Virus record (IMG/VR): IMGVR_UViG_3300009081_000018
Coordinates: 1 to 48,464 of that record
DNA length: 48,464 nucleotides
Strand: one strand, 5' to 3'
From: a virus
Shown here: positions 1,496 to 44,573 of the stretch, one piece after another
Numbering within the stretch: position 1 is the first letter of the stretch
Layout of the letters: each line of letters starts with the position of its first letter
Notes under the pieces: model-generated
What the model saw: only the letters and a program-made list of their open reading frames with translations
What the model was told of the DNA's origin: nothing
Database searches by the model: none
Position numbers and translations under genes: made by a program

Positions 1496-1758
1496 TAGCC
1501 CACGACGCCCCCGACCCCATCAACCCAACCGCGGGCCTGCGCTGCCCAACCTGCGGCCGCACCCCGCGCCTGTCGGTGACCCCGCCCGAGACGCACCCGC
1601 CCATCGATGCGGAGGCGGAGCTGACGTGCTGCCGCCACTACGCCCACGCCGCGGGCGAAACCGCCGTCAGCGCCGCCGAGGATGCCGCGGGGCGGTGGCT
1701 GCGGCTGTTCCCGGTGGCTGACGCGGGCGGGGATGTTGATCCGGATCCGACCCCATGA
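1492..1758 (+). CDS. Small zinc-finger-like hypothetical protein
   Basis: An 88-aa protein with a probable zinc knuckle: LRCPTCGRTPRL near residues 16-27 and TCCRHYAHAAGE near residues 45-56. Four cysteines plus histidines would suffice to bind one zinc ion. The C-terminal third is an amphipathic helix ending in an acidic-Pro tail. Start and stop both overlap neighbours in ATGA junctions, which supports the reading. Function is unknown; phage proteins of this kind often bind nucleic acid. Confidence 0.65.
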   Translation: MIAHDAPDPINPTAGLRCPTCGRTPRLSVTPPETHPPIDAEAELTCCRHYAHAAGETAVSAAEDAAGRWLRLFPVADAGGDVDPDPTP

Positions 1759-2342
1759 GCCGCGATCCCCTTGACCGCTACTACACCGACGACCGCCTCG
1801 CAGCGGCCTGCATGCGTTGGCTGATCGACTGCTTCGACGCGCCCGACGTGGTCCTTGAGCCCTGCAGCGGCGGCGGGGCCTTCGGGCGCGCGGCGCAGCG
1901 GGCGGCCCCCGGCGTGAGGGTGCTCGGGTGCGACATCGACCCTGACGCCGCGCCCGGCTACCCCTGTGACCGCGTGCCAGTGTCGACGTGGCGCCCGCCG
2001 GCCGGCCTGCCATGGCGGACGTGGATCGTCACGAACCCGCATTACCAGGGCATCTACGACACGGTGCGCGATCTGCGCGCTCTGCAGGACCGGGCCGGCG
2101 CATCGGTTGTGGCCCTGCTTCTGCGCGAGACGACCATCGGGCAGTTGATCGCTGGCGACGACCCGCCGCACCACTTCGTGGTGAGTCCTATCCGGCCGCG
2201 GTGGGGCGGCCCCGGTGGCGCCGCGCTGACGTCGGGGGACACCTGCGGGTCGGTCCTCTGTGTGTGGGAGGAAGGCGAGCGTCAGGGCACCACGTCGCGG
2301 ATCAGCCTGCTTCCGCCTTGGCGCGCAAAGGGCAGTCGATAG
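1755..2342 (+). CDS. DNA methyltransferase-like protein, NPHY variant
   Basis: This 195-aa protein has the class I SAM-methyltransferase layout of phage DNA adenine methylases. It opens RYYTDDRLAAACMRWLID. Motif I is VLEPCSGGGAFG (33-44), followed by an acidic strand end (D60) and then TNPHYQG (93-99) where the family has NPPY or DPPY. The later VVALLLRET and SPIRPRW segments match the C-terminal half of such phage methylases. It probably methylates adenine in phage DNA, against restriction or as a mark. The Pro-to-His change in the catalytic motif may alter activity or substrate. It is last in the ssb operon, coupled by ATGA, and converges on the RNR operon. Confidence 0.75.
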   Translation: MSRDPLDRYYTDDRLAAACMRWLIDCFDAPDVVLEPCSGGGAFGRAAQRAAPGVRVLGCDIDPDAAPGYPCDRVPVSTWRPPAGLPWRTWIVTNPHYQGIYDTVRDLRALQDRAGASVVALLLRETTIGQLIAGDDPPHHFVVSPIRPRWGGPGGAALTSGDTCGSVLCVWEEGERQGTTSRISLLPPWRAKGSR

Positions 2343-2689: not shown

Positions 2690-4756
2690 TCAGCGCCCGC
2701 CGAGCTCGCACGCCCCGCCGGCGCAGGCCGACGTCGCATGGCCCTCGCTGACACCGGTCTCGAACTCCCGCAGGCGCGCCCAGTCCACCGCCGGGAAGGC
2801 GCGGGTCAGGCGGCGGTACTTCGCCGCGCTGATCTTCTCCAAGGGTGCGGCATGGTAGCGCGCATCAGCGACCGGGTAGAACGACAGGCCGCCGATCTGA
2901 TCGAAGTGGTCCCACACCCATTCGCCCAGCGCGTCCCATTCGTCCGGCTTGACGTAGATGGTCGCCGACGCGTTGTGCCCGCGGTCGCCCAGGTACGACC
3001 GGGTCACCTTCAGGTAGCGCTCCGCCTGCTCAATCGCGCCCTCGTCGCCCGCGATCAGCGCGCCCTTGGGTGCGGCCCGGGGGAACTCGAACGACCACGA
3101 CGACACGTCGTCGGCGGTGATGGTCCCGGCCTTCAGCTTCACCGCCTCGCTGTACGACGACGGGGTCGCAGGCACACCGGACGCGCGCAAGAGCTGCGCA
3201 ATCGGGGAGCCCGCGTCGATGGCCACGCGCCGGATGAAGTACGGCGCATAGTGGCCGTGGAAGCCCGACGCGCACCCGAGGACCGCCGCGCTGTTGCCGT
3301 CCGGCTTGACCGCGGTGACGGCCGCCGCGGTGTTGATGCCGAACTTGGGCGCCCAACGCTCATTCTCGGCGACCGCCGCGCGGTTGAGCGCGGTCATCAC
3401 GTCCTCGTCCGTGCTGATCTGCGGGCAGTCCGCGTGCGCCGACAGACAAACCCCGAGCAGCGCGTCGCGGTCGGTGTTGGCCTTCCACCCCGCCCGCAGC
3501 CCACGGAAGTCGGTCAGGGTCGCCTGGATGGTCCCAGCGAAGGCGGCCAGGGCCACCTTGCGCGCCGCGCTCTCCGGCGTGTCCCAGGGGCGCAGGACGG
3601 CCATCGTCAGGTTGCAGAACTGCCCGCCGCCGTCGGTCCACGCCGCATCGCGCGCCGCCCGAAGGAGCAGCATCAGGGCGATCTCCACACAGGGATTGAA
3701 GCCGATGCGCATGAGTGCGCGCCGGGCGCGGGACACACGCTCCAGGCTGATCCGCCACTGGTTGCGCGCCGAAGAGATGAACCCGGGCTCGCCGGATTGC
3801 CCGTTGGACAGGACGCCCCACATGCGCTTGAAGGTGCCGCGCGACAGGGTCAGGCGGGGGTTGGCGTGGAGGGACGAGATGTTGACCTGCCCGCGCAGAG
3901 CGGCGATGTCCGACCCCGGCGCGTACTGCCGCCAGTCCTTGATCGCGGCCATCGCGCTGTCCTCGCCGCTGAAGAGCGCAATCATCGCCGACCGCCGCAC
4001 CCCGCCGACGTGGACCGCCTGCCCGGCGAGGCAGAGCAGGTCGTTGATCTCCACCGTCGTCAAGCCGCGCCGCTGCCGCCCGGCCGCACGGATGACGTCC
4101 CGCAGCGTGTCAAGGTACTTCGCCAGCGGCTCGGGGCCGGAAGCCTGCCCGCCCGCGGTCTTCAGCGGCGCGCCCTTGGGTCGGACGCCACTGTAGTCGA
4201 AGACGACGTCGTCGCCATTGAACCACGCGGTCACGCCGGCCTCAACGGCATCGCGCCAGCCTTCCTTGCTGTCGCCGACGACGTGGACGGCGGGCGCCAC
4301 ATCGCGCCGCGGCATGACCGGGTGCGGCATCAGCGCGACCACGTCCTCCTCGACGCTGTACCCGACGCCGGTGCCGTGCATCAGGACATAGAGCGCCTCC
4401 CAGAACACCGCGGGGCCATCGGCCGCAACCGACGCACAGTTGAAGTAGCTGATATCATTGGTGGACACACCGGCAGACCAGAGCACCCGCATCGCCGGCA
4501 TGACCTCGCGCTTCAGCATCGCCGTGCGCAGGTCCGCCAACCGGGCCTCGAAGCCATCCAGATCGCCGTCCCCATCGGCCGCGATCTTCGCCCGGCCGCG
4601 CGCACGGAAGAAGTCAATCGTCCGGTCGACGCAGTGCGCCCACGTCTCGCGCTCGCCGTCCGGCAAGAGCCGCGCATACGACCGCTTGAACACCGTCTCC
4701 GCGAGGGCATCACCCAAGCCGACATCAACCATCCCAACACCATCCTCAACACCCAT
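2690..4756 (-). CDS. nrdJ: Adenosylcobalamin-dependent (class II) ribonucleoside-triphosphate reductase
   Basis: This enzyme makes deoxynucleotides without an oxygen-dependent radical subunit, using coenzyme B12. The 688-aa protein has the monomeric RTPR layout: FNCAS with C107, the radical-site NPCVEI with C356 and E358, the partner QFCNL with C381, and a C-terminal redox pair ACAGGACEL (C678, C683) that re-reduces the active site. ATG at 4756 is chosen because GGGAGG sits seven bases upstream; an in-frame upstream start adds an Arg-rich, unlikely N-terminus. It is last in an operon with clamp, MazG-like and DUF262 genes and has an extra promoter of its own. The C356-C381 spacing (25) is longer than in the Lactobacillus enzyme (C408-C419). 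Confidence 0.93.
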   Translation of the reverse strand: MGVEDGVGMVDVGLGDALAETVFKRSYARLLPDGERETWAHCVDRTIDFFRARGRAKIAADGDGDLDGFEARLADLRTAMLKREVMPAMRVLWSAGVSTNDISYFNCASVAADGPAVFWEALYVLMHGTGVGYSVEEDVVALMPHPVMPRRDVAPAVHVVGDSKEGWRDAVEAGVTAWFNGDDVVFDYSGVRPKGAPLKTAGGQASGPEPLAKYLDTLRDVIRAAGRQRRGLTTVEINDLLCLAGQAVHVGGVRRSAMIALFSGEDSAMAAIKDWRQYAPGSDIAALRGQVNISSLHANPRLTLSRGTFKRMWGVLSNGQSGEPGFISSARNQWRISLERVSRARRALMRIGFNPCVEIALMLLLRAARDAAWTDGGGQFCNLTMAVLRPWDTPESAARKVALAAFAGTIQATLTDFRGLRAGWKANTDRDALLGVCLSAHADCPQISTDEDVMTALNRAAVAENERWAPKFGINTAAAVTAVKPDGNSAAVLGCASGFHGHYAPYFIRRVAIDAGSPIAQLLRASGVPATPSSYSEAVKLKAGTITADDVSSWSFEFPRAAPKGALIAGDEGAIEQAERYLKVTRSYLGDRGHNASATIYVKPDEWDALGEWVWDHFDQIGGLSFYPVADARYHAAPLEKISAAKYRRLTRAFPAVDWARLREFETGVSEGHATSACAGGACELGGR

Positions 4757-4788
4757 CACACACCTCCCAAAATCAAGAACAGACCCCC

Positions 4789-4816
4789 AGCGTACCACAC
4801 GCCGGGGGCCGGTCAA
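4789..4816 (-). promoter_or_regulatory. Internal promoter before the RNR gene
   Basis: On the minus strand TTGACC (4816-4811), a 16-nt spacer and TACGCT (4794-4789) match the TTGAC-TANNNT form used elsewhere here. A second TTGACC lies at 4823-4818, making a tandem TTGACCG repeat that could be an operator. The predicted transcript would have a leader of about 25 bases before the RNR ATG. Confidence 0.5.
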
Positions 4817-4843: not shown

Positions 4844-6058
4844 TCAGTCCAACCGCATCGGCATGACCACGCCGCCGACCCCAGCCCGCGCCCCGGACCA
4901 CGAGACCGGATCGAGCGCGCCAGCCAGACGGAAGGTCACCGGCCCCGCGCCCGCGGCCTTCACGGCGTCGCTGAGATACCGCGCGTTGAAGCCGGTCTGC
5001 AGCGGCGGGCCGTCGACCTCGGCGTCGACCTCTTCCTGCGCGCTGCCCGCCTTCAGCGACACCGCCGCGAGGCCGATCCGGCCTTCGTTCAGCGCGACGC
5101 GGATCGAGCTGTTCTTGTCGTCGGCGCACAGGCCAACGCGGGACAGCCCCGCCGCCAGCGCCCCGCCGTCGACGGTCGCGGTGATGCGGATCGAGGACTC
5201 GGGGAGCAAGACCAGCCGATAGTCCGGAAACTGCCCATCGATCATCCGGTACTCAACCACCGTCGCCTGCGCCCGCACGCCGTCCGGGCCGACCACCCCG
5301 CCGACCTCGGCGCGCAGGTGCCGGGGGCCCCAGGCCAGCGTGACAGTCGCGCCGTCCGGGTCACCGTTGCCGCGGATGACCTGCCGCAGCGCGTGCGCCT
5401 GGGCCTTGCCGAAGAGCGACGTCCGCGGGATCTTGACCGCGCCCGGGTCGACCTTCGCGTCGACGATGACCTCCGCCCACGTCAAGCGGCTGCCGTCCGT
5501 GCCGACCCACCGCAGCGCCCCGGCGGCGCGCCCGTCCGGCCCGGCGACGTGCTCCACCGCCGCGCCGTTCAGGCCCTGCCGGTTGACGTCATCGGACACG
5601 GCCGGGATCACCGCCCCGAGCGCGTCCGACAGAGCCGCCGCGCCGAGCGTGATGCCAGCGCCGTAGGTGACCTCGTCCTTGGCCGGCGGGAAGTCATCGA
5701 CCTCGCCGCACTGCAGCTTGTACTCGGTCTTCCCGGCCTTGACGGTCAGGACGCGCCCATCCTTGCCGCCGGCCTTCATCCACACCGGGCCCGCGCCCTT
5801 CAGCGCGTCAAGGACTTGCACGATCCGCCCCGCCGGCACCGCGACCCGCCCGAGCCCGCGGCACTCCGTGACCGACAGGGCCGGCGTGGTCAGGCGCGCC
5901 ACGCCATCAGTCCCGACCGCCGACAGGCCGTCCCGGGTCAGGATCATCAGCACGTCCGCCGACGCCCCGCCGGACACGTCCCGATCCCGCGCCGCCGCCG
6001 AAGCGGCCAGACCGACGACCAACCGCACCACATCGCCATTCACGACACAATCGAGCAT
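4844..6058 (-). CDS. dnaN: DNA polymerase III beta sliding clamp
   Basis: The 404-aa protein has the three-domain clamp signatures: a middle-domain segment with EYRMIDGQFPDYRLVLLPE (family YRxIDGQFPDYxxVxP), then GFNARYLSDAVKAAG, and a C-terminal VVMPMRL close to the usual VMPMR(I/L). It would form a dimeric ring on DNA and tether a polymerase or other clamp-binding enzymes. Length is close to the bacterial clamp, slightly longer. The start is the ATG at 6058, with GGAGG six bases upstream, overlapping the MazG-like stop as TGATG; an in-frame TTG just upstream is less likely. No DNA polymerase is visible in the window, so it may serve the host polymerase or the AEP enzyme. Confidence 0.92.
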   Translation of the reverse strand: MLDCVVNGDVVRLVVGLAASAAARDRDVSGGASADVLMILTRDGLSAVGTDGVARLTTPALSVTECRGLGRVAVPAGRIVQVLDALKGAGPVWMKAGGKDGRVLTVKAGKTEYKLQCGEVDDFPPAKDEVTYGAGITLGAAALSDALGAVIPAVSDDVNRQGLNGAAVEHVAGPDGRAAGALRWVGTDGSRLTWAEVIVDAKVDPGAVKIPRTSLFGKAQAHALRQVIRGNGDPDGATVTLAWGPRHLRAEVGGVVGPDGVRAQATVVEYRMIDGQFPDYRLVLLPESSIRITATVDGGALAAGLSRVGLCADDKNSSIRVALNEGRIGLAAVSLKAGSAQEEVDAEVDGPPLQTGFNARYLSDAVKAAGAGPVTFRLAGALDPVSWSGARAGVGGVVMPMRLD

Positions 6059-6612
6059 CAAACACCTCCGCCCGCGCCGCCGCGGGCCTCGCGATCATGC
6101 AGCGTCCCGGCGCTCTGCCGGGCCCGCAGCTTCTCCAGGTTGTAGAACGCGACCTCTTGCGCCGAGAAACCAGCGGCACGGCACATGGACGTCGCCACCA
6201 TCGCCAGCGGCAGGCCCCCGAGCACGTCCCCCATCGCCACGCCGATTGCGTGCGCGACGTGGTCGACCCGATCCGTAAGGGTCATCTCGTAGACAGGCCG
6301 CACAGGGTCGGCGGTCCACAGCCCAACGCCGTCCCCCTCCGACTCAAGCGCCGCGTACCACAGCACGTCGCCCAGCTCGGCCCGCAGGTCGACGAAGACC
6401 TCGGCGCCCTTCTTGAGCACGCGCCGGTCATCCAGCGCGCCGAGCGCCTCGCCGAGCTCAGACAGCACCCCGCGCCGCGCCGCAGACGCCGCGCGGTCGG
6501 GCCGGTACGCGCTCAACCGCAGCACCTCGGCGCGGTAGTCCCGCCACCGCAGGCTGCGCCACGGGTCGAACAGCGCGCCGTCCGGCGGCGCCTGCACTTC
6601 ATCACCACTCAT
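6058..6612 (-). CDS. MazG-like nucleoside triphosphate pyrophosphohydrolase
   Basis: This 184-aa all-alpha protein resembles phage MazG-like NTP pyrophosphatases. The metal-binding pattern is SELGEALG (E52, E55) then RAELGDVLWY (E79, D82), and NLEKLRAR occurs near the C-terminus as in the family. It probably hydrolyses dNTPs or NTPs to monophosphate and pyrophosphate, to clear damaged nucleotides, balance the pool or blunt nucleotide alarm signals. ATG at 6612 has GGGAGG spaced seven bases and overlaps the DUF262 stop by 11 bases; a further upstream start would lose that site. It is translated in chain with dnaN (TGATG). Confidence 0.75.
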   Translation of the reverse strand: MSGDEVQAPPDGALFDPWRSLRWRDYRAEVLRLSAYRPDRAASAARRGVLSELGEALGALDDRRVLKKGAEVFVDLRAELGDVLWYAALESEGDGVGLWTADPVRPVYEMTLTDRVDHVAHAIGVAMGDVLGGLPLAMVATSMCRAAGFSAQEVAFYNLEKLRARQSAGTLHDREARGGAGGGV

Positions 6613-7414
6613 CACCACCTCCCGCGGCAGCCTCAAGCCCCGCCAGTGTGTCCGTGTCCATCGGGGTTCCGCCCCGGTTCAGGTCCAAGAACGCCCGCAG
6701 CGCCGCGCGGGTCTGCGCCGCCGGTTCGCCCGATGTCTCGATGACGACGCTGACCACCTCGGGTCTCCGCATCGCCTCCATCGCGTAGCAGCGCAGAAGC
6801 CGCATCTCATCGGTATCAAGCGCCGCCACATCGCCGTCGAGCGCAGCGTCCCGCAGGGCATCGACGGTCCGCCAGTCGCACACCCCGGCGAACGGCAGCC
6901 GCAGGGGGCCGGGCTCCCACGTCCAGCGCGCCGCCAGCGCATCCCACACAGGTCGCCGCAGGTCAGGGGCCGGCGTGCCGTCCGCCCGCCGCATCTTGAC
7001 GCCGACTGCAGTCAAGCGCTGCTGTCCGTCAAGGATCACCGCCTGCTGCCCGGCGGTGGTGTACCGGCGCCAGATCACGACGACCCCGCCGTGCCCGCCG
7101 GTCAGAAGCCGCTCATGGTAGGCCATCACCTGATCGTCGGTCCACACAAAGGGCCGCTGCCACGGCGGCAGGACGAAGGGCATCGAGTCGCGCTGCGACG
7201 ACTCAAGGAACTGCCACAGGCAATGCCGCATCACCTGGACCGACACCGGATCGGACCACCGCGACAACTCCCGGTAGCGCGCCCGGACGTCGGCGGTCCG
7301 ATCCTCGAAGGCATCCCGCTCCCGCAACCGCACCTGCTCGCGGGCTGCCTCTTCGGCCTGCCGCGCCTTGCTGGCCGCAGTCGTCTGTGGGGCCTTCATC
7401 TTGCGCCTGCCCAT
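6602..7414 (-). CDS. DUF262 (GmrS/ParB-fold) domain protein
   Basis: This 270-aa protein has a charged N-terminal helix (residues 10-60), then the DUF262 hallmarks: LPPWQRPFVWTDDQ (82-95), ILDGQQRLTAV (127-137) and a C-terminal LNRGGTPMD. DUF262 is the ParB/sulfiredoxin-fold half of GmrSD-type modification-dependent nucleases and uses NTPs. The usual HNH partner domain (DUF1524) is missing. It may be a regulator, an NTP-dependent sensor of modified DNA or an anti-defence protein; the sequence does not decide. ATG at 7414 follows GGAGGTGGTG. It is first in the minus-strand nucleotide operon. Confidence 0.75.
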   Translation of the reverse strand: MGRRKMKAPQTTAASKARQAEEAAREQVRLRERDAFEDRTADVRARYRELSRWSDPVSVQVMRHCLWQFLESSQRDSMPFVLPPWQRPFVWTDDQVMAYHERLLTGGHGGVVVIWRRYTTAGQQAVILDGQQRLTAVGVKMRRADGTPAPDLRRPVWDALAARWTWEPGPLRLPFAGVCDWRTVDALRDAALDGDVAALDTDEMRLLRCYAMEAMRRPEVVSVVIETSGEPAAQTRAALRAFLDLNRGGTPMDTDTLAGLEAAAGGGDEW

Positions 7415-7461
7415 CACCACCTCCACCCGCCCGCCGATCCACCCGGCACCGCGGCCCCGGC

Positions 7462-7491
7462 AGCCTATCCCCGCTGCCCCGCGCCCGTCAA
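7462..7491 (-). promoter_or_regulatory. Promoter of the DUF262-MazG-dnaN-RNR operon
   Basis: On the minus strand TTGACG (7491-7486), an 18-nt spacer and TAGGCT (7467-7462) lie about 48 bases before the DUF262 start. Directly upstream is a direct repeat of TCTTTGCG with a 10-base period, recalling the CTTTGC-rich block of the divergent plus-strand promoter. The -35 is preceded by GCTA as in the plus-strand copies. Confidence 0.6.
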
Positions 7492-7549
7492 TAGCGGCGC
7501 GCAAAGAACCGCAAAGACCGCGAGAACACCGCAGCCGTGCGCGTCATCG

Positions 7550-14888: not shown

Positions 14889-15421
14889 CCCGCCCCAACG
14901 CCAGCCCCGCCGCCTACATCGACGTCCACGTCACCCCCGGCGACCGCGCCCTGCCGATCTTCGACAACCCGACCCGCCTGCCCGCCGCGCTCTTCACCCT
15001 CTGGCGCCCCGGGCCTGCGCAAGCCCGCGACCTCGTGATCCACACCGGCGCGCCGATGCTGCTGGGCCGCGGCGCCAACGGAGACATCATCGCCACCGTC
15101 GCTCGCATCCGTCCGCGCTGCGCCCGGGGGCGGCACGGAGTCACCGGCTGGGCGCTGGTCACGGAGCAGTCCAGCGTCGGTGTGCGCGTGCTGGTCTTCC
15201 GTCGCCGTGCGCAGGCGATCCGTTGGGCCCGCCGGATGATGAACCCTCTGCGCTGGGAGGATGACGGCCCGGTTGAGTGGACGAACGTCGGCACGGTCGC
15301 CAGCCACCGCCCGCACATCCTGCTCATCGCCGAGCGCGACGCTTGGGTCCGGCGCAACCCGTTCGCCTACACCGGCCCGTCCGGGGCCATCCACTTCTGC
15401 AATGACGAGGACGACACATGA
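14885..15421 (+). CDS. Hypothetical protein upstream of thyX
   Basis: A 178-aa protein; the ATG overlaps the previous stop and its own stop overlaps the thyX start. It looks globular alpha/beta: AAYIDVHVTPGDRALPIF, LLGRGANGDIIATVARI, a basic helix VFRRRAQAIRWARRMM, and a C-terminal segment RPHILLIAERDAWVRR. I recognise no family. Tight coupling to thyX suggests co-expression but says little about function. Confidence 0.65.
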   Translation: MTRPNASPAAYIDVHVTPGDRALPIFDNPTRLPAALFTLWRPGPAQARDLVIHTGAPMLLGRGANGDIIATVARIRPRCARGRHGVTGWALVTEQSSVGVRVLVFRRRAQAIRWARRMMNPLRWEDDGPVEWTNVGTVASHRPHILLIAERDAWVRRNPFAYTGPSGAIHFCNDEDDT

Positions 15422-16269
15422 CCCTCCGCCCCCAGAACCTCGCCGCCGACGGCCTTATCGGCGTGCGCATCCCCATCGGCCCCGCCAGCTTCGTCAGCCT
15501 CGTGGACTACCACGGCAACGACGCCGCAATCGCCCGCGCCGCCCGGGTCAGCTACGGCCGGCACGACGCCGACCGGGGCGCCGAGGCCGACGCGCGGTTG
15601 ATCGGCTTCCTTGTGCGGCACCGGCACACGACGCCGATGGAGATGGCCCGGCTGGTCTTCCACGTCCGGCTGCCGATCTTCGTGGCGCGCCAGTGGATGC
15701 GGCATCGGACGTGGTCGTTCAACGAAGTCAGCGGCCGATACACCGACCTGCCCGCCGACTGCTACCGTCCGCCCGCGCTGCACGCCGAGCCTGCGCCGGG
15801 TGCCAACCAACAGGGCCACGGCGGGCGGCTTGACCCGGACACGCTGGCCAACGCCTGCGCAACGCTCATCGGCGCCGAGCGCGCCGCGGTGTACGGCTAC
15901 CGCGCCCTGCGCGACCTCGGCGTGGCGAAGGAACAGGCCCGGATGGTCCTGCCGGTCGCGGTTTACACCGAGTTCACCGCTGCAGCCGACCTGCACAACC
16001 TGTTGCGCTTCCTGCAACTGCGGACGGCGCCCAACGCCCAAGACGAGATCCGGACCTACGCCGCTGCCATCGAGGGGATCGTCGCCGCTGCCTTTCCCTT
16101 GACCCACGCCGCTTGGTCCGAGCACGTCCGCGACGCCGTCACCCTCTCCTCTGGCGCCCAGCGCGCCCTCGCCGCCGCCCTGCGCACCGGCACCGCACCG
16201 GACCTGTCCGGCCTGCCGCCGCGGGAGCGCGCCGACGTTGAGGCGTGGATCGCGCGGGGTGACCTGTGA
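15418..16269 (+). CDS. thyX: Flavin-dependent thymidylate synthase
   Basis: ThyX converts dUMP to dTMP using methylene-tetrahydrofolate, FAD and NADPH. The 283-aa protein carries the family signature RHRTWSFNEVSGR (95-107), preceded by HRHTTPMEMARLVFHVRLPIF in two parts (68-88). The C-terminal pair AKEQARMVLPV and LHNLLRFLQLRTAPNAQDEI is the FAD and substrate region. Length is normal or slightly long. With the class II RNR it gives the phage its own dTTP supply. Start and stop overlap neighbours by ATGA. Confidence 0.96.
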   Translation: MTLRPQNLAADGLIGVRIPIGPASFVSLVDYHGNDAAIARAARVSYGRHDADRGAEADARLIGFLVRHRHTTPMEMARLVFHVRLPIFVARQWMRHRTWSFNEVSGRYTDLPADCYRPPALHAEPAPGANQQGHGGRLDPDTLANACATLIGAERAAVYGYRALRDLGVAKEQARMVLPVAVYTEFTAAADLHNLLRFLQLRTAPNAQDEIRTYAAAIEGIVAAAFPLTHAAWSEHVRDAVTLSSGAQRALAAALRTGTAPDLSGLPPRERADVEAWIARGDL

Positions 16270-36965: not shown

Positions 36966-38189
36966 TCAGTCCTTGAAGACAGGCCGGGTCGCACACCGGC
37001 AGTTGATGTCTTGACGGGCGATGCCGAAGCCGCCGGGGGACGGAGCGGTGGCCCCTACGTCTTGCCCCGACGGTATCACGAACATACCCCCGGGCGCAAC
37101 ACGTTGCCCATGACAGCGGCGATGGGAGCGGTCCGGTTCGACAGGGAGCGGCGCGCGGACCCATTCAACCTCGAAGTCGACGCCGATGTTGGCTGCTTGC
37201 CCATAGGCCAAGTCGGTCCCGGCCTGCAGGGCGCGGTTGGTCTCGGTCCGGGCGATGGTCAGGGCGCGGGCCGCGGAGAAGGCTTGCGACGACCGGACGC
37301 GCTCTTGGATGTCGCCGATGGACTCGCCGGCGGTGATGCCTGCGATGACCTCGGCCTCGATCTGCCGCTTGGTCGTCTCGTTGACCCTGGTCACCTGCTC
37401 AGCCAACAAGCCGGGCGTCGGGGTCAGGGTCGGTTCCCAAGCGATGCCCCGGCCATTCGGTGCGGTCAGCCATGCCCGGAACAGACCCCAGCCCACTTGC
37501 ACGGTCGCGCCGATGACGCTGGTCACAGCCTCGGCGATGGTCAGAGCCTCGGCTGCGACGGAGAACAGCGCGGCGACGTCATCGGCGATGAGCACCCGGC
37601 GCACCGGGGCGGTCCCGGTAGGCGTCAATAGGCCGGCGCGTACACCCCGGGCAGCGTCAATAGCCCCGAGCCGTGCGATCAGGCGGTCGCGCTGGGCACG
37701 GAGCGCCCCGGACCATGCGCGGAGGACAGCGCGCTCTTGGGTGCGGCGGGCCTTGCCCACGATGCGGCGCGACCGGGCCACCGTCAGGCGCGGGGGCTTG
37801 CCTGCGGCGCGGGTAACCGGAGCGCGGCGGGCTGCGCGGCGCTTCGGCTTGCGCGCAGCCATGATCGCGTCGCGGCGCACGCGCGCCCAGCGCCGGCCGG
37901 CGTCTCCGCCCCAGAGCAGCCAAGCGATCCACTGCGCGGACGGGTCGGAGCGGTCTTCCCAGCCCGCGGCGGTCTGCTGCGCGCCGTGTCTGGCGAAGAA
38001 GGAGTGCATCCGCAGGATGGTTCGGTCGCTGAGGTTCGCGCGGTTGGCGATGTCCCTGGCGCGTGCGACACCGACGGCAGTCCCGCCCCGGCCGTGCTCT
38101 TCGCGGAGGCGCAGGCCGAGGCGCGCGTTGGAAGCCATCCCCGCGGTCGGCTTGCGGTCGATACCGGCGATGTCGCGGTCGACCTTCAC
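36966..38189 (-). CDS. MuF-like minor head protein with an extra N-terminal domain
   Basis: A 407-aa protein starting at GTG in a GTGA overlap with the portal gene. The C-terminal half matches the Mu F/SPP1 gp7 group: SAARALTIARTETNRALQAG (around residue 305-325), then DINCRC at the end. The N-terminal 100 residues hold a separate conserved phage module with GRGGTAVGVARARDIANR and WIAWLLWGGDAGRRWA, usually found in other phage proteins. Basic linkers separate the parts. It is probably a minor head protein injected or placed near the portal. Confidence 0.78.
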   Translation of the reverse strand: MKVDRDIAGIDRKPTAGMASNARLGLRLREEHGRGGTAVGVARARDIANRANLSDRTILRMHSFFARHGAQQTAAGWEDRSDPSAQWIAWLLWGGDAGRRWARVRRDAIMAARKPKRRAARRAPVTRAAGKPPRLTVARSRRIVGKARRTQERAVLRAWSGALRAQRDRLIARLGAIDAARGVRAGLLTPTGTAPVRRVLIADDVAALFSVAAEALTIAEAVTSVIGATVQVGWGLFRAWLTAPNGRGIAWEPTLTPTPGLLAEQVTRVNETTKRQIEAEVIAGITAGESIGDIQERVRSSQAFSAARALTIARTETNRALQAGTDLAYGQAANIGVDFEVEWVRAPLPVEPDRSHRRCHGQRVAPGGMFVIPSGQDVGATAPSPGGFGIARQDINCRCATRPVFKD

Positions 38190-39661
38190 CCGTCGCCCCG
38201 GGCCGCAAGGGCCTCGGCGGCAGCGGTCAGGGCGGCGATGGCCTCGGCGCGCTCGTCGTCGGTAGCGTCGGGGTTGGCGAGCACGTCGGCGGCATCGGAC
38301 AGCGACGATGCAAGGTCGGCGTCTTCGGTGGCGAGGTCTTCATCTTCGTCGAGGTCGTCGTCTTCATCGTCGGGGGAGTCGTCGGCAGGCGCAGGCGCGG
38401 GGGTCTGCCCGGCGGGGGCTGCCGGGGCGGCGGGGGCGGTGAAGGCTCCCTCGGGCACGTCGTCCCAGCCCTCGTAGGCGTAGGCGACGGCCGGGTCCAT
38501 CCCATTCGCGATGTGGGCGCCGATGCGTGCGAGGATGTCGGAGTCGGCGGCCTGCAGGGGCCCCACGCCGCTGAAGTCATGCTCGACGGTGATGCTGTCG
38601 TCGCGGTCGATCCGGCGGGCCAGCATCGTCATCGCTTCGTCCAGTGGTGCGATCTTGCCCTTCAGGTCCGTCCAGTACGACGTGAGCTGCGCGCCGGCGG
38701 TCGCGAAGATGTTCGCGGCATCGACGCCCAAGCGCACGGGCGGCACGCCAAAGACGGCGAGGATGAGGTCACGGGTCCAGCGTCGCTGGTTCGGCCCGTC
38801 CATGTCCTTCGGCGCCCAGTCCAGCGTGTCGAGCTCGGCGCCGGCTGTGCCGAGGACCGCGACCCCGCCGTCGGCGTCGCTGAACAGGCGCCCGATCTGC
38901 GTCTTGATGACGGCGATCTGCGCGGCAGTCCATCCCTGCCCGACGTCCTTGGATGCCGGGCGGTAGATGGCGGCGGGGCGCCCTGACCGAGCCTTGCGCG
39001 CGGTGCCGGCGGCGAGGGCCTGATCAGCGGTCAGGTCGCTGTGGAGTACCTGCGTTGCACCGACGCCGGCGAGGGCCTCAGGGCCGTCCAACACGCCCAG
39101 CGTCAGGACGGACAGCACCGCTTCGGGCGGGTAGGTCTGCATCTTGTCGCTGCCGATCTCGTAGCCCAAGGGCGTGCCGTCGGCGGCGGGGATGACCTTC
39201 ACGCGCTCGGGGTGGGCCCACCGCACGCCGATGGGGGCGCCGTTCAGGTTACTGTAGAGCAGGACCGATGTGCTGCGCCCGGCCAGAAGCATGTCCCGCA
39301 CAGTCGCCTCGCGCCATGTCCGCGACGACGGGTGCCCGCTGTTGGCGACGGCCTTGGGCAGCCAGTGGCCCTCGACGACTTCGCCCCGGCGCTTGACGAC
39401 GATGGGGAGCGCGGCGAGGTCGCCGGCAATCGCCCGGACGCAGGCGTACACCCAAGGGTTGAGGTACGCGCTGAGCGCGATGGTGGGGCTGTACAGGCCC
39501 TCGGTCGGCGCGGCCGCGGCGTAGTCTCCGCCAGCGATGAACTCGCGCGGCTTCTCGACTGGGTTGACCAGCCCGAGCGCACGGGCAACCGACAGGTAGG
39601 CGCGGCCCCAGACGGACGTGGGGGCGACGGCAAGGGGCGCTGTGTCGGTCGGGGTGGCCAT
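38186..39661 (-). CDS. Portal protein, HK97 type
   Basis: A 491-aa portal ring subunit. LNPWVYACVRAIAGDLAALP (about residues 67-86) and WTRDLILAVFGVPPVRLGV match HK97 portals. The C-terminal 100 residues are acidic and disordered (DDSPDDEDDDLDEDEDLA), perhaps a scaffolding-like tail. The ATG at 39661 lacks a good ribosome site; a promoter placed so that its start point falls on this ATG suggests a leaderless transcript. An in-frame upstream TTG would lie inside that promoter. Confidence 0.9.
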   Translation of the reverse strand: MATPTDTAPLAVAPTSVWGRAYLSVARALGLVNPVEKPREFIAGGDYAAAAPTEGLYSPTIALSAYLNPWVYACVRAIAGDLAALPIVVKRRGEVVEGHWLPKAVANSGHPSSRTWREATVRDMLLAGRSTSVLLYSNLNGAPIGVRWAHPERVKVIPAADGTPLGYEIGSDKMQTYPPEAVLSVLTLGVLDGPEALAGVGATQVLHSDLTADQALAAGTARKARSGRPAAIYRPASKDVGQGWTAAQIAVIKTQIGRLFSDADGGVAVLGTAGAELDTLDWAPKDMDGPNQRRWTRDLILAVFGVPPVRLGVDAANIFATAGAQLTSYWTDLKGKIAPLDEAMTMLARRIDRDDSITVEHDFSGVGPLQAADSDILARIGAHIANGMDPAVAYAYEGWDDVPEGAFTAPAAPAAPAGQTPAPAPADDSPDDEDDDLDEDEDLATEDADLASSLSDAADVLANPDATDDERAEAIAALTAAAEALAARGDG

Positions 39662-39667
39662 GCCGCG

Positions 39668-39697
39668 ATCATAGCCCGGGTGCGGTGTCAAGGTCAA
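39668..39697 (-). promoter_or_regulatory. Promoter at the terminase-portal junction
   Basis: On the minus strand TTGACC (39697-39692), an 18-nt spacer and TATGAT (39673-39668). The -35 overlaps the large terminase stop codon. A start point seven bases past the -10 falls at 39661, the first base of the portal ATG, so this may give a leaderless structural-gene mRNA. Confidence 0.55.
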
Positions 39698-41427
39698 CCG
39701 GTGCCCTCCTCTGCGGGTGTGCTGTACCGCCCGCGCAGGGCATAGACGAGGTAGCGCAGGACGTCATGTGCGTGGTCGTCGCCGTCAGTCTCCCACCTGT
39801 CAGCGGTCTCACCGTGGCGGCCCTTGCGCCAGACCAGCCGGGCCGTCTCCCGGATGAGGTTGACGCACCTGTCATGGATGACCACGCCGGGCGTGCCATG
39901 CTTCGGACTGACGGTCATCCGGTCGAAGAGCACCTGAAACGAGGCGGCCCGGCCCTTCTCGGCAGGGGCGGTTGGCAGGTCGTAGAGCGTCGAGAGCATC
40001 CCCCGCTGGTCCTTGCCCTCGGGGTCCGCCCAGCGCATCGTCGGGGCGTCGGACGTCAGGCCGGTGCCGGCGCAGGTCTCGCAGCGGTGCGTCCCGTCGG
40101 CGCAGCGCACGCGCCAGCGGGTCCATTCGTCGCTGCCCACGCCGTCGGTCGGCTGGCAGGCCGGGCAGCCCTCCACCGCCCAGATCGCGGCGGCGTGGTA
40201 GGCGAGGATCTCGTCTGCCTTGTAGTGCTCCCTGTAGACGTGGAGCACGTCGGCGCTCTCGTCATGCGCGGCCCACAGGTGGCAGAAGGGCGCGCGGGCG
40301 CCGAAGTCGATCCCGCCGTAGCGGGGCCAGTGTGCCGGGGGGTCGAAGGACGGGACGACGTAGGGCAGACCGTTGTGGAAGTCGGGGTGCACCGCGCCCT
40401 CCAAGGCCACGATCTCGCCGCGGAGGCGGCTGCGTCGGATCGCTTCGGGCTTCCCGGCCCACTTGTCTGCGACGACGGTCGGGGAGACGTGGGGGTTGTC
40501 CATCGCATGGAGGAAGGCCACGAACAGGCGCGGCGGCGGCGGCGTGCCTTTATCGAGGTGCCCGACGTTGGTGAGTAGGAAGGGGGTCCAGCCCGACAGG
40601 GGCGTCATCGTCGCATAGACAAGGCCGTCGTAGTCGATGGTCCGGGCGCCGATGGAGTCGAACCCCTGCACTGACTGCGGCTCTTCGTCGACCCATGCGC
40701 CGTGGATTTTGGCGCCTTCAAAGGGGTTTTTCGCGTTGCCCTCGCTGGTGTTCTGCGCGAAGGCTTTGCAGACGATCTTGCCGCCGCCCGGCAGTCTGAC
40801 CTCGGCCTCGTTGTCGGCCTCCCAGCCGCGGCGCTTGCTTCCGGCGGGCAGGTACTTGTCCAGCTTCTCCCGTTGGATGGTGCGCGACATCGTGTGCGTC
40901 TGCGACACCGCCCAGAACAGGCCGGGGCCGCGCTGGATGCGCGCCAGCGGCAGGCCGTTGAGGCGCGCCCATGCCTGCGTGTCGGGGTGGTCGGCGCCCT
41001 GCGCGATGGCCACAGCGACCTGCGCGCCGGCTTCGGTCTTGCCGGTCCGGCTGCCGCCGAGCAGGAACGCCTTGTCGTAGTCCCCGGCGAGAAGGGCCCG
41101 CACCGCGCCGATCTGCGACGTGCGGGACTCCTCGATGCCGCAGACCGGGCAGCGGTGGATCGTGCCGCGGACCTCGACCATCGGCGCGCCGCGGCGGCCC
41201 TTGGGTGGCGCGGGGGCGGCTGGGTCGGGGTGGGGGCAGGTGCGGCACTCAGGCGCCCAGAGGCGGGCGTAGGCGAGCGGCGACGCCTTGCGCGCGGCGT
41301 CCTGCGCGTCGAGGATGGCCTCGTAGTCCTCGATCAAGTCGAGGATCTCGTCAGGGACGCGCTTGCGGGCTGCGCGGTAGGCCGCGACCCGCCGGGCGAG
41401 CTCGGCGAGGGCGGTAGCCGGGTCCAT
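39694..41427 (-). CDS. Terminase large subunit
   Basis: The 577-aa packaging motor. N-terminal CRTC...HRCPVCG (C61, C64, C93, C96) is a zinc ribbon. Walker A is GGSRTGKT (124-131), Walker B AWVDEE (244-249). The nuclease domain has YGGIDFGA (D374) and TDGDDHAHD (548-555). A cysteine-rich insert with CPAC and CETCAGTG (C421, C424, C449, C452) breaks the nuclease domain and is uncommon. Start overlaps the small terminase stop by one base. Confidence 0.93.
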   Translation of the reverse strand: MDPATALAELARRVAAYRAARKRVPDEILDLIEDYEAILDAQDAARKASPLAYARLWAPECRTCPHPDPAAPAPPKGRRGAPMVEVRGTIHRCPVCGIEESRTSQIGAVRALLAGDYDKAFLLGGSRTGKTEAGAQVAVAIAQGADHPDTQAWARLNGLPLARIQRGPGLFWAVSQTHTMSRTIQREKLDKYLPAGSKRRGWEADNEAEVRLPGGGKIVCKAFAQNTSEGNAKNPFEGAKIHGAWVDEEPQSVQGFDSIGARTIDYDGLVYATMTPLSGWTPFLLTNVGHLDKGTPPPPRLFVAFLHAMDNPHVSPTVVADKWAGKPEAIRRSRLRGEIVALEGAVHPDFHNGLPYVVPSFDPPAHWPRYGGIDFGARAPFCHLWAAHDESADVLHVYREHYKADEILAYHAAAIWAVEGCPACQPTDGVGSDEWTRWRVRCADGTHRCETCAGTGLTSDAPTMRWADPEGKDQRGMLSTLYDLPTAPAEKGRAASFQVLFDRMTVSPKHGTPGVVIHDRCVNLIRETARLVWRKGRHGETADRWETDGDDHAHDVLRYLVYALRGRYSTPAEEGTG

Positions 41428-41951
41428 CAGTCCTCCGCGCCGTCGTCCTCGTCATCGACAGGCGCCGCGCCGGGGGCGACGTCATCCTCCCCGTCGTCGG
41501 CGCCCTCGTCATCGTCGTCGGCCTCATCCGGCGGGGGAAGGGTCGCGAGCGCGGCGCCCAAGCGCTCCGACAGGCGGGCGAGACGGTCCTCGGGGGACTC
41601 GTCCGACCGGCTCTCCAAGACCTCGACGGTCGATGTCTTGCCGACGCCGATCCGGTCAAGGATGGCGATGGCCGCGTTGACCTGTGCGGCAGGTGGGGCC
41701 GTCGTGTCCTTGGCGATGCGGACCAAGGCGGCGACGGCGGCGAACCGGCCCCCGCGCAGCGCGCCGCGGGTGGCCTTGGTGATCTCGGCGACCCGGCGCT
41801 CGATCTCGGCCTTGACGTGGGGGCGCTTGAGCGCGACTTCGACGCCCTTCTCGGTCAGGCCGGAGAACTCGGCGGCCTTCCGGCGCGTCATGCCGTTGGC
41901 GATGGCTTCGGCGAGGAGGATGTTGCGCGGGGTGAGGCGGCCGACGGTCAT
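41427..41951 (-). CDS. Terminase small subunit
   Basis: A 174-aa DNA-recognition subunit. The N-terminus has a helix-turn-helix (NILLAEAIANGMTRRKAAEF, then SGLTEKGVEVALKRPHVKAE) of the TerS type. The middle is helical (AALVRIAKDTTAPPAAQVNA) for oligomerisation, and the C-terminal 40 residues are very acidic, a probable contact for the large subunit. The order just before the large subunit is standard. Confidence 0.85.
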   Translation of the reverse strand: MTVGRLTPRNILLAEAIANGMTRRKAAEFSGLTEKGVEVALKRPHVKAEIERRVAEITKATRGALRGGRFAAVAALVRIAKDTTAPPAAQVNAAIAILDRIGVGKTSTVEVLESRSDESPEDRLARLSERLGAALATLPPPDEADDDDEGADDGEDDVAPGAAPVDDEDDGAED

Positions 41952-41952
41952 G

Positions 41953-42813
41953 TCATGCCCTCGCTTTGCGGTGTTCGGGGGAGAGGATGCAGGGGTAGGT
42001 GTTCGCGCTGTTGATCTTGTGGTGGACCCGGTACGCCGGGGATCGCGGGTCGCCCAATGTGCTGATCTGTACGGACGATGGCTGCACCATGACGGTATAG
42101 AACGATTTCACGTAAGTGCCGAACGCAAGGTAGATGTCGGTCAGGCCGCCGGTGTTCTGCTGTGTGTTGGCCTGATTTAGTTGCGCCTGGATGATCGTTA
42201 GGAACACACGCCCTAACACTCCGAGCGAAACGTATGTATTCACGTCGTCGTTGAGCTTGCCACAAAAGTAGAAGGGCCGCTCAGAGTCACAGATAAAGCT
42301 ATTCATAGCCTTTCTGCGTGTCGACCAATCTGGGCTGCCTCCGATATGATCCCCCCCTTGGGACAATGCAACGCACTGGACCCCGCTTGCAGAAAGGAAC
42401 TCCACCAAAGCACTAAAAACGTCGTCTAAGTGCGTTCCGCCCCAAAGTTTGGCCGTACAGTATCGCCCGGCTGAGTTGAACCGAAGATAGAAGCTGTTGT
42501 AATCGTCGTCCAACTCAATGAAATACCGATAGCCGTCGGCCTTCGCGATGCCCCAAAGCGCGTTCCGGGCGTAGATCACCGACCGGCGCTCGTCGAAGTT
42601 GTCCATCTCGTCGAAGAGCAGCGCGGCCTCGGCCTTGCTGAACTTGACGACCTCGGCGCCGTAGCGCTCGACGTACTGGGGTCCGGTCTTGTCCTCGTCA
42701 TCGATCACGATGCGGATGGGGCCGGTGTAGCCCGACCGGCGCAGGATATCGTAGGTCTGCACGTTGTCCGGCCTGCCGTGGCTGAGGATGTAGGCGCAGA
42801 AGTCAGGACGCAT
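41953..42813 (-). CDS. Glycosyltransferase, GT-A-like, resembling phage DNA-modifying TAGT enzymes
   Basis: A 286-aa protein starting MRPDFCAYILSHGRPDNVQT. It has a nucleotide-sugar Rossmann core (GPIRIVIDDEDKTGPQYVER, 31-50), then DEMDNFDERRSVIYARNALW (68-87) and the metal-binding FIELDDDYNSF (98-108; D102-D104). This order recalls the TET-associated glycosyltransferases proposed to glycosylate modified phage bases. It lies between a ParB-domain gene (11-base overlap) and the terminase. The C-terminal two thirds (about 42040-42530) has clearly lower G+C and more A/T-ending codons than neighbours, a sign of separate origin. No TET or thymidine hydroxylase is in the window, so the acceptor is unknown. 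Confidence 0.68.
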   Translation of the reverse strand: MRPDFCAYILSHGRPDNVQTYDILRRSGYTGPIRIVIDDEDKTGPQYVERYGAEVVKFSKAEAALLFDEMDNFDERRSVIYARNALWGIAKADGYRYFIELDDDYNSFYLRFNSAGRYCTAKLWGGTHLDDVFSALVEFLSASGVQCVALSQGGDHIGGSPDWSTRRKAMNSFICDSERPFYFCGKLNDDVNTYVSLGVLGRVFLTIIQAQLNQANTQQNTGGLTDIYLAFGTYVKSFYTVMVQPSSVQISTLGDPRSPAYRVHHKINSANTYPCILSPEHRKARA

Positions 42814-43693
42814 CGGCCGCGCTCCGGTCTGCAAGCTGCCCGAGCCGCTCGGAGAGGTGGACGAAGCCGTTCTCGATGGCCTTGTCGAAGTCGATGATGA
42901 CCAGCGCCGAGCGCTCCATGAGGTCTTGCAAGGCAGGGTCGGCGTGGCAGTAGAACTCGGCGATCTGCCGGTACTTGAAGACCGTGTGCCGATGGGCGGC
43001 GGCAACCATGAACGCCCGGACGTCGGGTGGCAGGCTCGCGCGCTCGATCTCGGCGATGAGCGCCGACGTCTTGCCCTGATCGAAGAGCTCCGACGTCTCG
43101 GGGCGATTGCCCTTCGGCGTGTAGGTCGGCGCCTTGACCTTGCGCGTGTACGGGTTGTCCTCGATCACGTCGGCGGGCTTCGGGACGTCGACGGCCGGGC
43201 CGGCGGGGCCCTGCGATGCGGGGGTGACGACCTCGGCCTTGGGTGCCGGACCGGTGTTGATCGGGTCGGCGCTGACTTCGCCGTCGTCGTCGCTGATGCC
43301 GTCAAGGTACTTGTCGATCTCGGCGTCGGAGAACCCGAGCCCCGACAGGTCGAAGAGCTCTTCGTCGAGTCCATGCAGCGCCTCGGCGAGAAGCGCGTCA
43401 TCCCACTCCGCGAGCTCGCCGAGCTTGTTGTCGGCCAGCGCGAGGGCCTTCGCCTGCGCCGGGTCCAAGTCCATGAACCGGACCAGCACCTTGTCGAGCC
43501 CGAGCGACTGCGCGGCAGCCCAACGGGTGTGGCCTGCGATGATCACGTTGTCAGCGCGCCGGGCGATGATCGGCGAGGAGAAGCCGAAGCGCTTGATTGA
43601 GCCGGCGACTTCTTTGATGGCGGCCGCGTTCTTCCGGGGGTTCTTGTCCCACGGCTTGATCGCGTCGATAGCAACCCACTCTGCTTCCGCCAC
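42803..43693 (-). CDS. ParB-domain protein with phage C-terminal module
   Basis: A 296-aa protein, first gene of the late operon, starting at GTG with AAGGGGG upstream. The N-terminus is a ParB/Srx domain: WVAIDAIKPWDKNPRKN (6-22), VAGSIKRFGFSSPIIARR, and the signature VIIAGHTRWAAAQSLGLD (50-67), then ALALADNKLGELAEWDDA. The C-terminal 130 residues hold a module found in phage ParB and methylase proteins (KGNRPETSELFDQGKTSALI, HTVFKYRQIAEFYCHADPAL, MERSALVIIDFDKAIENGFV). No methyltransferase domain is attached. Adjacent to a glycosyltransferase, it may bind or mark DNA for modification or packaging. Known for the family: NTP binding and sometimes nuclease activity. Confidence 0.75.
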   Translation of the reverse strand: MAEAEWVAIDAIKPWDKNPRKNAAAIKEVAGSIKRFGFSSPIIARRADNVIIAGHTRWAAAQSLGLDKVLVRFMDLDPAQAKALALADNKLGELAEWDDALLAEALHGLDEELFDLSGLGFSDAEIDKYLDGISDDDGEVSADPINTGPAPKAEVVTPASQGPAGPAVDVPKPADVIEDNPYTRKVKAPTYTPKGNRPETSELFDQGKTSALIAEIERASLPPDVRAFMVAAAHRHTVFKYRQIAEFYCHADPALQDLMERSALVIIDFDKAIENGFVHLSERLGQLADRSAADAS

Positions 43694-43929: not shown

Positions 43930-44428
43930 GGGGCGGCCGGTCGCGGGCGGGTCGTCAAGCCAGTCGCCCGACTGGTGTCCTGGTCACCTGCGACGGCAGC
44001 GCAATATCAACGGCATAGGAGGACCGAAGAGGGCCGGTCGTCATGGGACACACGGCATGGTACCCGTCTTTTTGCCTAACCTTCCGCTCGACTTCGCCGA
44101 AAAAGTGAGACACCAGAAACGCATGCACTCTGCCCCATGACTGGATCAGAAGAAGAGAAGATCTCCCGTGTGGGGGGAGGGTCTTCTTCTCTTCTGCGGA
44201 GGCTCCCCCTAAAAAACGATGTATCTCAGATCTGGTAACTTTATAGCTTATACTTGCTGATAACGTCCTACTGGGCGCCATTCTCGCCGGGTACCAAACG
44301 GGTACACGGCCTGCGACCGGCCCGCAGCGTCAGGGCGAGAACAGCGCCAGCATCGCCATCCACAACGCGCGACCCGGACACCAAGGGCCGCGACCCGACC
44401 GCGACCGCACTTCCCGCGCTCTTCGGGC
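43930..44428. other. Divergent control region with AT-rich island, possible origin
   Basis: This region lies between the late and replication operons. About 43990-44280 is far less GC-rich than the rest (A- and T-runs, TTTATAGCTTATACTTGC). It holds a long inverted repeat and no supported gene. A 108-codon minus-strand frame (44281-43955) crosses the inverted repeat with poor codon choice and is doubtful. Low stability, dyad symmetry and position next to the primase gene fit a replication origin, but no repeated initiator sites are obvious. Confidence 0.45.
44151..44195. repeat. Inverted repeat in the AT-rich island
   Basis: AGAAGAGAAGA (44151-44161) pairs with TCTTCTCTTCT (44185-44195); an inner CTCCC pairs with GGGAG (44175-44179) across a bulge. 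The arms are purine-only against pyrimidine-only, an unusual sequence in this genome. Could be an origin hairpin, a terminator or a triplex-prone site. Confidence 0.6.
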
Positions 44429-44458: not shown

Positions 44459-44488
44459 CAAGGCGCCTGCTGACCTGGGCACCCCGCC

Positions 44489-44519
44489 TGCACCGCCGGA
44501 CTTGCTACCCGGCGGTGCA
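44489..44519 (+). repeat. Perfect 11-bp hairpin in the replication leader
   Basis: TGCACCGCCGG (44489-44499) and CCGGCGGTGCA (44509-44519) pair exactly with a 9-nt loop ACTTGCTAC, 54 bases before the primase start. No T-run follows. It could be an attenuator, an RNA-binding site or an operator for autoregulation by a replication protein. Confidence 0.6.
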
Positions 44520-44573
44520 GGGCCACCGGGCCCCGGACGCTACAGCGGCGACACCCCGTGCCCCAGGTCACCA

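Follow-up and report, generated by a model that had tools for sequence, protein, structure and literature searches.

The TAGT enzyme of phages T2 and T6 attaches a second glucose unit to glucosyl-5hmC (PMC13216743, PMC13390438). In a 2026 survey, 288 of 753 phage genomes had TAGT homologues that were solitary, accompanied by neither alpha- nor beta-GT; these were listed as "potential novel transferases" (PMC13216743). TAGTs were initially connected with TET/JBP genes, and DNA-base glycosylation was proposed for them, in the work of Iyer et al. (2013) as far as it is relayed in PMC4111573. Phage DNA-modifying genes can also occupy the slot before the terminase. In Gordonia phage CaiB, such genes have been described as nucleotide modification enzymes preceding the terminase (PMC9302106). 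The ParB_N-N6/N4 DNA methyltransferases (phrog_498) of T280, EJ-1, and Javan213 are found in the same slot.

Here, we analyzed a locus on a linear IMG/VR virus record of 48,464 bases with 72% GC, which is possibly incomplete; the whole record is referred to as the window. A preliminary description had read a glycosyltransferase (GT) gene and an overlapping ParB-domain gene in the window as a possible DNA hypermodification pair. The window GT shares the Pfam family PF20691 and the GT-A fold with the T2/T6 beta-glucosyl-HMC-alpha-glucosyltransferase. The T-even enzyme differs in that it extends the glucose on 5hmC and acts downstream of an alpha-GT and a dCMP hydroxymethylase, whereas for the window pair no 5hmC route was found and the C-terminal domain (CTD) of the ParB-domain protein is a constant partner. 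T-even phages were absent from the tblastn matches to the window GT and to the CTD. The TET/JBP-associated cassettes, at least as summarized in PMC4111573, have the TAGT family and the proposed DNA-base glycosylation in common with the window, but the window and 13 other records have no TET/JBP. The CaiB cassette has the slot before the terminase and a homologous ParB_N; its predicted chemistry is oxidation and amino-acid transfer, and neither CTD nor TAGT is present there. The ParB_N-N6/N4 methyltransferases have a ParB_N that is 46–49% identical to that of the window, but they carry the methyltransferase half in one polypeptide, in contrast to a CTD plus a separate GT.

Gene order in the window

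The pair is part of a packed run of minus-strand genes, in the order ParB-domain gene, GT, TerS-position gene, TerL, and portal (PHROGs; Table 1). The overlap between the ParB-domain gene and the GT gene noted earlier is real, as both minus-strand ORFs are present and share 11 nt (ATGCGTCCTGA). Between the GT stop and the start codon (ATG) of the TerS-position gene lies a single nucleotide. Hence, the pair does lie next to the terminase, directly upstream of the TerS-position gene, TerL, and portal. The GT starts with the ATG at 42813 (MRPDFC..., 286 aa), and the ORF from 43005 is merely an in-frame upstream extension.

Table 1 Features of the locus in the window
Feature	Position	Strand	Basis
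ParB_N-CTD protein, 296 aa, GTG start 43693	42803..43693	(-)	PF02195; phrog_620 over residues 5-282
ParB_N domain, residues 5-89, swappable targeting module (proposed role)	43427..43681	(-)	PF02195; identity to methylase ParB_N
CTD, ~residues 178-286, extended segment Y182-P198 and helical core	42836..43162	(-)	Stand-alone homologues, linkage, invariant residues, model
TAGT-family GT-A glycosyltransferase, 286 aa, ATG start 42813	41953..42813	(-)	PF20691, phrog_842, model and fold search
LDDDY metal motif of the GT, residues 101-105	42499..42513	(-)	DDDY invariant in 33 aligned sequences
Small gene, TerS identity from position only	41427..41951	(-)	Weak phrog_15261, function unassigned in PHROGs
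Terminase large subunit (TerL)	39694..41427	(-)	phrog_2, E 4.5e-14
Portal protein	38186..39697	(-)	phrog_12, E 6e-26

The 3' two thirds of the GT gene (41953–42550) have a GC content of 55%, compared with about 72% genome-wide, and the GT genes of the relatives L016–L018 are likewise low (57–60%). This segment therefore appears to be either old foreign DNA or constrained. The divergent intergenic region contains two hairpin-capable inverted repeats (44146–44200 and 44487–44521), one with 16-nt arms that are 88% paired and one with perfect 13-nt arms, which are possibly a terminator, packaging, or origin signal.

The glycosyltransferase is a TAGT-family enzyme

The GT matches the TAGT profile PF20691 with 77.7 bits (cut-off 27.5, E 1.5e-21) over profile positions 4–205 of 205. 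It also matches phrog_842 (E 1e-61), which bears the name of the T2/T6 beta-glucosyl-HMC-alpha-glucosyltransferase. These matches are far above chance, and the protein is a TAGT-family GT-A enzyme. The HMM comparison with TAGT that had been proposed earlier thus gives the expected family. The predicted structure (pTM 0.85) yields GT-A fold matches from E 1e-5; these are generic, with some protein glycosyltransferases (e.g., glycogenin and SunS) among them. The LDDDY metal site is real too, and its DDD is invariant in 33 aligned sequences. A search of the GT profile against the sequences of solved structures gave no match. Kinship with capsular or lipid GTs, which would have spoken against an action on DNA, was not seen: no solved GT is close by sequence, and the fold matches are those of any GT-A enzyme.

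The ParB-domain protein carries a second, unnamed domain

The match of the ParB-domain protein to PF02195, the profile of the sulfiredoxin-like ParB_N domain (38.9 bits, cut-off 26.3), covers the first third of the protein only, and the match to phrog_620 (E 1e-53) covers residues 5–282. With the full ParB/RepB/Spo0J model TIGR00180, the score of 48.4 bits stays below the cut-off of 58.45, and the match stops at residue 92. In the predicted structure, ParB_N is followed by a disordered linker and a CTD of about 110 residues. The fold search with this model listed only ParB_N-type matches, e.g., Noc and ParB. For the CTD, there was no Pfam, NCBIfam, or convincing PDB match. Its profile gave only chance-like helical matches among solved structures (best E 0.003), and a Pfam search with 30 CTD members assigned no family. 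In 11 of these 30, "Phage L5 gene 47" matched weakly (best E 0.003). A helix-turn-helix was considered for the CTD segment IAEYYAHA..EVQ and dropped, as nothing matched.

The extended segment of the CTD has the conserved pattern YTxKxxxPxYxPxGxxP, and R235, H236, Y248, Q256, E260, and D268 are invariant in the helical core. The tyrosines 182, 191, and 248 are invariant, and Ser262 is nearly so. In 190-kb Vibrio phages, a stand-alone CTD ORF that is 51% identical to the window CTD lies directly before the GT. Neither the CTD nor its strict linkage with TAGT is described in the literature that we searched. The 2013 TAGT paper was outside this search and may mention ParB beside TAGT, so we claim no priority for the ParB-TAGT pairing itself.

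The C-terminal domain and TAGT are the inherited unit

The linkage of CTD and TAGT was found independently from both sides. The scan with the GT covered viral contigs (80 loci), and a separate scan with the CTD covered genome contigs (48 loci) and viral contigs (80 loci). By the automatic rule, 206 of 210 CTD places have an adjoining GT; after the exceptions were checked, the number is 209 of 210. Three exceptions (L001, L003, and L024) are artefacts of the distance rule, as their GT ORFs extend far upstream. In the fourth (L202), the GT lies 3.2 kb downstream of the CTD and is fused to a methyltransferase. The CTD and GT genes overlap in 121 of the 130 pairs measured. ParB_N, however, is absent in 26 of the 210 CTD places. 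Some of these are contig ends, and several are genuine stand-alone CTD genes (L008, L070, L106, L125, L134, and others).

The two parts also vary together. Over 103 loci, the distance correlation between CTD and GT is 0.51 (0.48 as a partial correlation given ParB_N; 0 of 500 permutations), compared with 0.23 (partial 0.13) between ParB_N and GT. In the 56 loci with TerL, the values are 0.58 for CTD–GT and 0.24 for GT–TerL. Adjacency by itself inflates the co-variation of CTD and GT, yet ParB_N, which is encoded in the same gene as the CTD, does not show this rise. From the linkage and the co-variation, the inherited unit is CTD plus TAGT, to which ParB_N has been added or exchanged. Hence, the pairing described earlier does co-occur widely, as the proposed co-occurrence check shows, but it was assigned to the wrong domain: the constant partner is the CTD, whereas ParB_N is swappable and sometimes missing.

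The pair was found in phages, prophages, and contigs from Proteobacteria, Firmicutes, Bacteroidota, actinobacteria, and verrucomicrobial and other lineages. One case is archaeal, the haloarchaeal virus HHTV-2. A GT without CTD was seen in Lactobacillus phages Ld17 and LL-Ku, in L141, where the CTD match is partial, and as extra GT copies in L118. In Ld17 (L007, 75–833) and LL-Ku (L014, 90–938), a shortened or divergent TAGT opens the record and ParB-CTD is absent, which looks like decay of the cassette. Tandem CTD-TAGT pairs are present in L070 (7015–9525), where both CTDs stand alone and a radical-SAM/SPASM gene follows.

ParB_N is shared with DNA-modifying enzymes in the slot before the terminase

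Two comparisons show the exchange of modules behind ParB_N. In Lactobacillus phage jlb1, the order is ParB_N-CTD, TAGT, TerS, TerL, and portal, and in Lactobacillus phage T280, it is ParB_N-N6_N4 DNA methyltransferase, TerS, TerL, and portal. The two are 72% identical in ParB_N over 118 residues, 65–80% in TerL, and 67% in the portal, whereas the C-terminal modules differ. Among actinophages, Nocardia phage NTR1 has the order ParB_N-CTD, TAGT, and TerL, and CaiB encodes ParB_N, Tet_JBP, an amino acid:DNA transferase (PF18724), a P-loop kinase (PF18751), an oxidoreductase, and TerL. Here, ParB_N is 58% identical over 131 aa and TerL 46%. The Tet_JBP match of CaiB is weak (E 5.6e-4, below the cut-off) and agrees with the published annotation. 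On these sequence comparisons, ParB_N is best described as a swappable front module common to DNA-modifying enzymes and CTD plus TAGT. Together with the position of the cassette, the shared module points to DNA as the probable target.

Of the 106 non-redundant loci with room for a terminase, at least 85 have one no more than 4 kb downstream. Modification late and close to packaging, as put forward before, fits the position in most loci. In the big Vibrio phages, however, the pair sits among replication genes, so a coupling to packaging is not general. ParB_N proteins with neither methyltransferase nor CTD also occur upstream of the terminase, namely in Vibrio phage X29 (L219, 140–742) and in Rostov 7 (L012, 5977–6594). 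Either the slot has a third use here, or these proteins are remnants.

Known acceptor-preparing enzymes are missing

By HMM search, Tet_JBP (PF12851) is absent from the window and from 13 further records with the GT family. This search works, as it finds CaiB, the positive control. C5-cytosine DNA methylase is likewise absent from the 14 records. The ThyA family (PF00303), which comprises thymidylate synthase, dCMP hydroxymethylase, and 5-hydroxy-dCMP synthase, was found only in two Vibrio phages among the 14 records and is absent from the window; the controls gave signals in 9 genomes. The alpha-GT and beta-GT profiles (PF11440 and PF09198) found nothing in 10 records, a search in which the positive control gave no signal either. 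For the window contig, the earlier observation that TET, hydroxymethylase, and cytosine methylase are missing therefore holds by HMM.

Thus, no known enzyme makes the acceptor in these records. To our knowledge, all known DNA glycosyltransferases need a hydroxylated base, and we know of none that acts on an unmodified DNA base. With these pathways absent, the base may be canonical, may be prepared by CTD-TAGT itself, or may come from an unrecognised or host enzyme, or else the acceptor is not DNA. In the literature searched, no nucleoside analysis or enzyme assay was found for phages of the CTD-TAGT clade.

Several window genes had been overlooked before. ThyX (15418–16269, plus strand; PF02511, E 1e-46), ribonucleotide reductase (2690–4816), and MazG (6058–6636) form a nucleotide-metabolism set. 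ThyX was considered as the acceptor-making enzyme and rejected, as nothing links it to the cassette. A small methyltransferase-like ORF (1755–2342, plus strand) matches the DNA methyltransferase family phrog_799 (E 3e-11) and has no Pfam match. A GmrSD_N ORF of 300 aa (6602–7504, minus strand; PF03235, E 5.5e-12) was seen with no nuclease half in the ORF. GmrSD enzymes cut sugar-modified DNA, and a GmrS-like protein is odd in a phage that bears a TAGT.

Accessory genes vary between loci

In relatives, sugar-related genes touch or overlap the cassette. UDP-galactopyranose mutase (GLF) does so in L111, where it scores above the equivalog cut-off, and in L118. RGP-family proteins do so in L039, L048, and L086; the RGPs of plants are UDP-arabinose mutases. 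Cytidylyltransferases do so in L047, L131, L185, and L195. In L185 (8323–9318) and L195 (2942–3895), CTD and TAGT are separated by a histidine-phosphatase-cytidylyltransferase fusion, which hints that the donor is CDP-activated. A gene resembling sugar-nucleotide epimerases accompanies the cassette in L097. No donor gene was seen beside the window pair. As the accessory genes differ between relatives, the donor sugar probably varies while the CTD stays constant.

Radical-SAM genes also touch or overlap the cassette in eight loci as well as in L070 and L137, and the nearest named models of the radical-SAM and radical-SAM/SPASM genes are peptide or protein maturases. A class I methyltransferase lies between CTD and GT in L125 and is fused to the GT in L202 (11547–13265), apparently the same kind in both; in L095, a remnant was seen by eye. 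A P-loop, kinase-like domain fused to the GT in L123 has a weak Pfam match only. Two or three consecutive GTs are present in L103, L114, L118, L121, L128, L133, L137, and L203.

Proposed mechanism and alternative explanations

DNA is probably the target in some form. The full model, in which the pair is a two-protein DNA glycosyltransferase targeted by ParB_N, has in our view slightly better than even chances. Hence, the initial reading as DNA hypermodification was right about TAGT, and DNA remains the best-supported target, given the DNA-acting TAGT members and the shared ParB_N module and slot; it erred in taking ParB as the constant partner.

In this model, the TAGT protein serves as the catalytic subunit of GT-A type, as seen from HMM, fold, and the invariant DDD, and would use an NDP-sugar. 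The CTD is its dedicated partner by linkage and co-variation and may form a physical complex with it. Both are probably made in step through the gene overlap, which suggests translational coupling. The YTxKxxxPxYxPxGxxP segment would pack onto the GT, and the helical core, which contains the invariant residues, would present or activate the acceptor. The interchangeable ParB_N would bring the enzyme to phage DNA, as it apparently does for the ParB_N-methyltransferases. As the cassette lies directly before the terminase in most loci, the mark would be set on the DNA at a late stage, either ahead of packaging or while it proceeds. The acceptor in the window would be a canonical base, one prepared by CTD-TAGT, or one from an unrecognised or host enzyme, since no TET, ThyA-type hydroxymethylase, or C5-methylase was seen there. 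The host pool would supply the sugar, as no donor gene adjoins the pair.

Some points speak against this model. The ligand of ParB_N may be CTP or a protein instead of DNA, the CTD could itself be the acceptor, ParB_N is missing in some loci, and no known phage route supplies the acceptor. CTD-TAGT may tentatively be seen as a self-sufficient two-subunit enzyme that puts the sugar onto a canonical DNA base or onto an acceptor group of its own making. Such an enzyme, possible though clearly less favoured than the full model, would work without TET, hydroxymethylase, or modified nucleotide pools, with interchangeable donors, and in both bacterial and archaeal viruses.

The main rival is a protein acceptor, which we consider unlikely and still serious. 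TAGT would then glycosylate the CTD, or a virion or host protein presented by it, and ParB_N-CTD would be a sugar-bearing protein that is DNA-associated or packaged. The CTD is always present and offers the invariant tyrosines and the near-invariant Ser262, the maturase-like radical-SAM(/SPASM) genes join some loci, glycogenin and SunS are among the (generic) fold matches, no DNA acceptor pathway was found, and RefSeq names the E. coli GT GREB1-related. DNA is nevertheless favoured, as ParB_N and the slot are common to DNA methyltransferase and TET/amino acid:DNA transferase cassettes, the TAGT members of known activity act on DNA, and a peptide substrate would be short and variable, whereas the CTD is a helical domain and conserved.

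Somewhat less probable still is glycosylation of a DNA base that has been pre-modified by an unrecognised enzyme, with the CTD as an accessory only. This enzyme would come from the host, from a missing part of the contig, or from a new phage gene, and window candidates would be ThyX or the small methyltransferase-like gene. The hydroxylated base needed by the known DNA glycosyltransferases, the possibly incomplete contig with these two genes on it, and the ThyA-family enzyme of the two Vibrio phages are in line with it. On the other side, the complete small phages c5 (31.8 kb), jlb1 (38 kb), and HHTV-2 (52.6 kb) have no Tet_JBP, ThyA, or C5-methylase, and the wide host range of the pair makes a common host enzyme unlikely.

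Two further explanations fare worse. An enzyme that alters the cell surface or another glycan, for superinfection exclusion or seroconversion, with ParB_N-CTD being incidental, is improbable: the donor genes (GLF, cytidylyltransferase, epimerase) serve surface glycans too, but no membrane segment or flippase partner was seen, the CTD/ParB_N fusion or linkage is constant, and the slot before the terminase is common to DNA-modifying cassettes. A chance neighbourhood of a ParB-like regulator or packaging factor and an unrelated GT, for which ParB_N proteins alone before the terminase (e.g., in X29) could be cited, is contradicted by TAGT at 209 of 210 CTD places and by gene overlaps that recur in phages from many phyla of bacteria and in one virus of haloarchaea, and we give it hardly any weight.

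Occurrence in isolated phages and in E. coli

With the present results, one clade of solitary TAGTs has a constant partner domain, a proposed targeting module, and a list of sugar-donor genes. As viruses infecting many bacteria, and one archaeon, carry the pair, the target of the sugar becomes a testable question; isolated phages with the pair include Lactobacillus c5 and jlb1. If DNA is the target, the sugar modification would be made without the known base-preparing enzymes.

Rac-type prophages of E. coli carry the pair, and intact copies consist of ParB_N-CTD plus TAGT and adjoin the terminase. The proteins are 34% (ParB) and 50% (GT) identical to those of the window. The ParB protein is named YnaK, and the GT is named "GREB1-related protein" in some annotations (PGAP). 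K-12-type strains differ in that only a short ynaK remnant is left and the GT is gone; in laboratory-type strains such as 4FA, the remnant lies beside ydaY. Among 5426 complete E. coli genomes, 885 contain the E. coli version with a coverage of 80% or more of its length; hence, if DNA is the target, the modification would also be a common one that has been overlooked.
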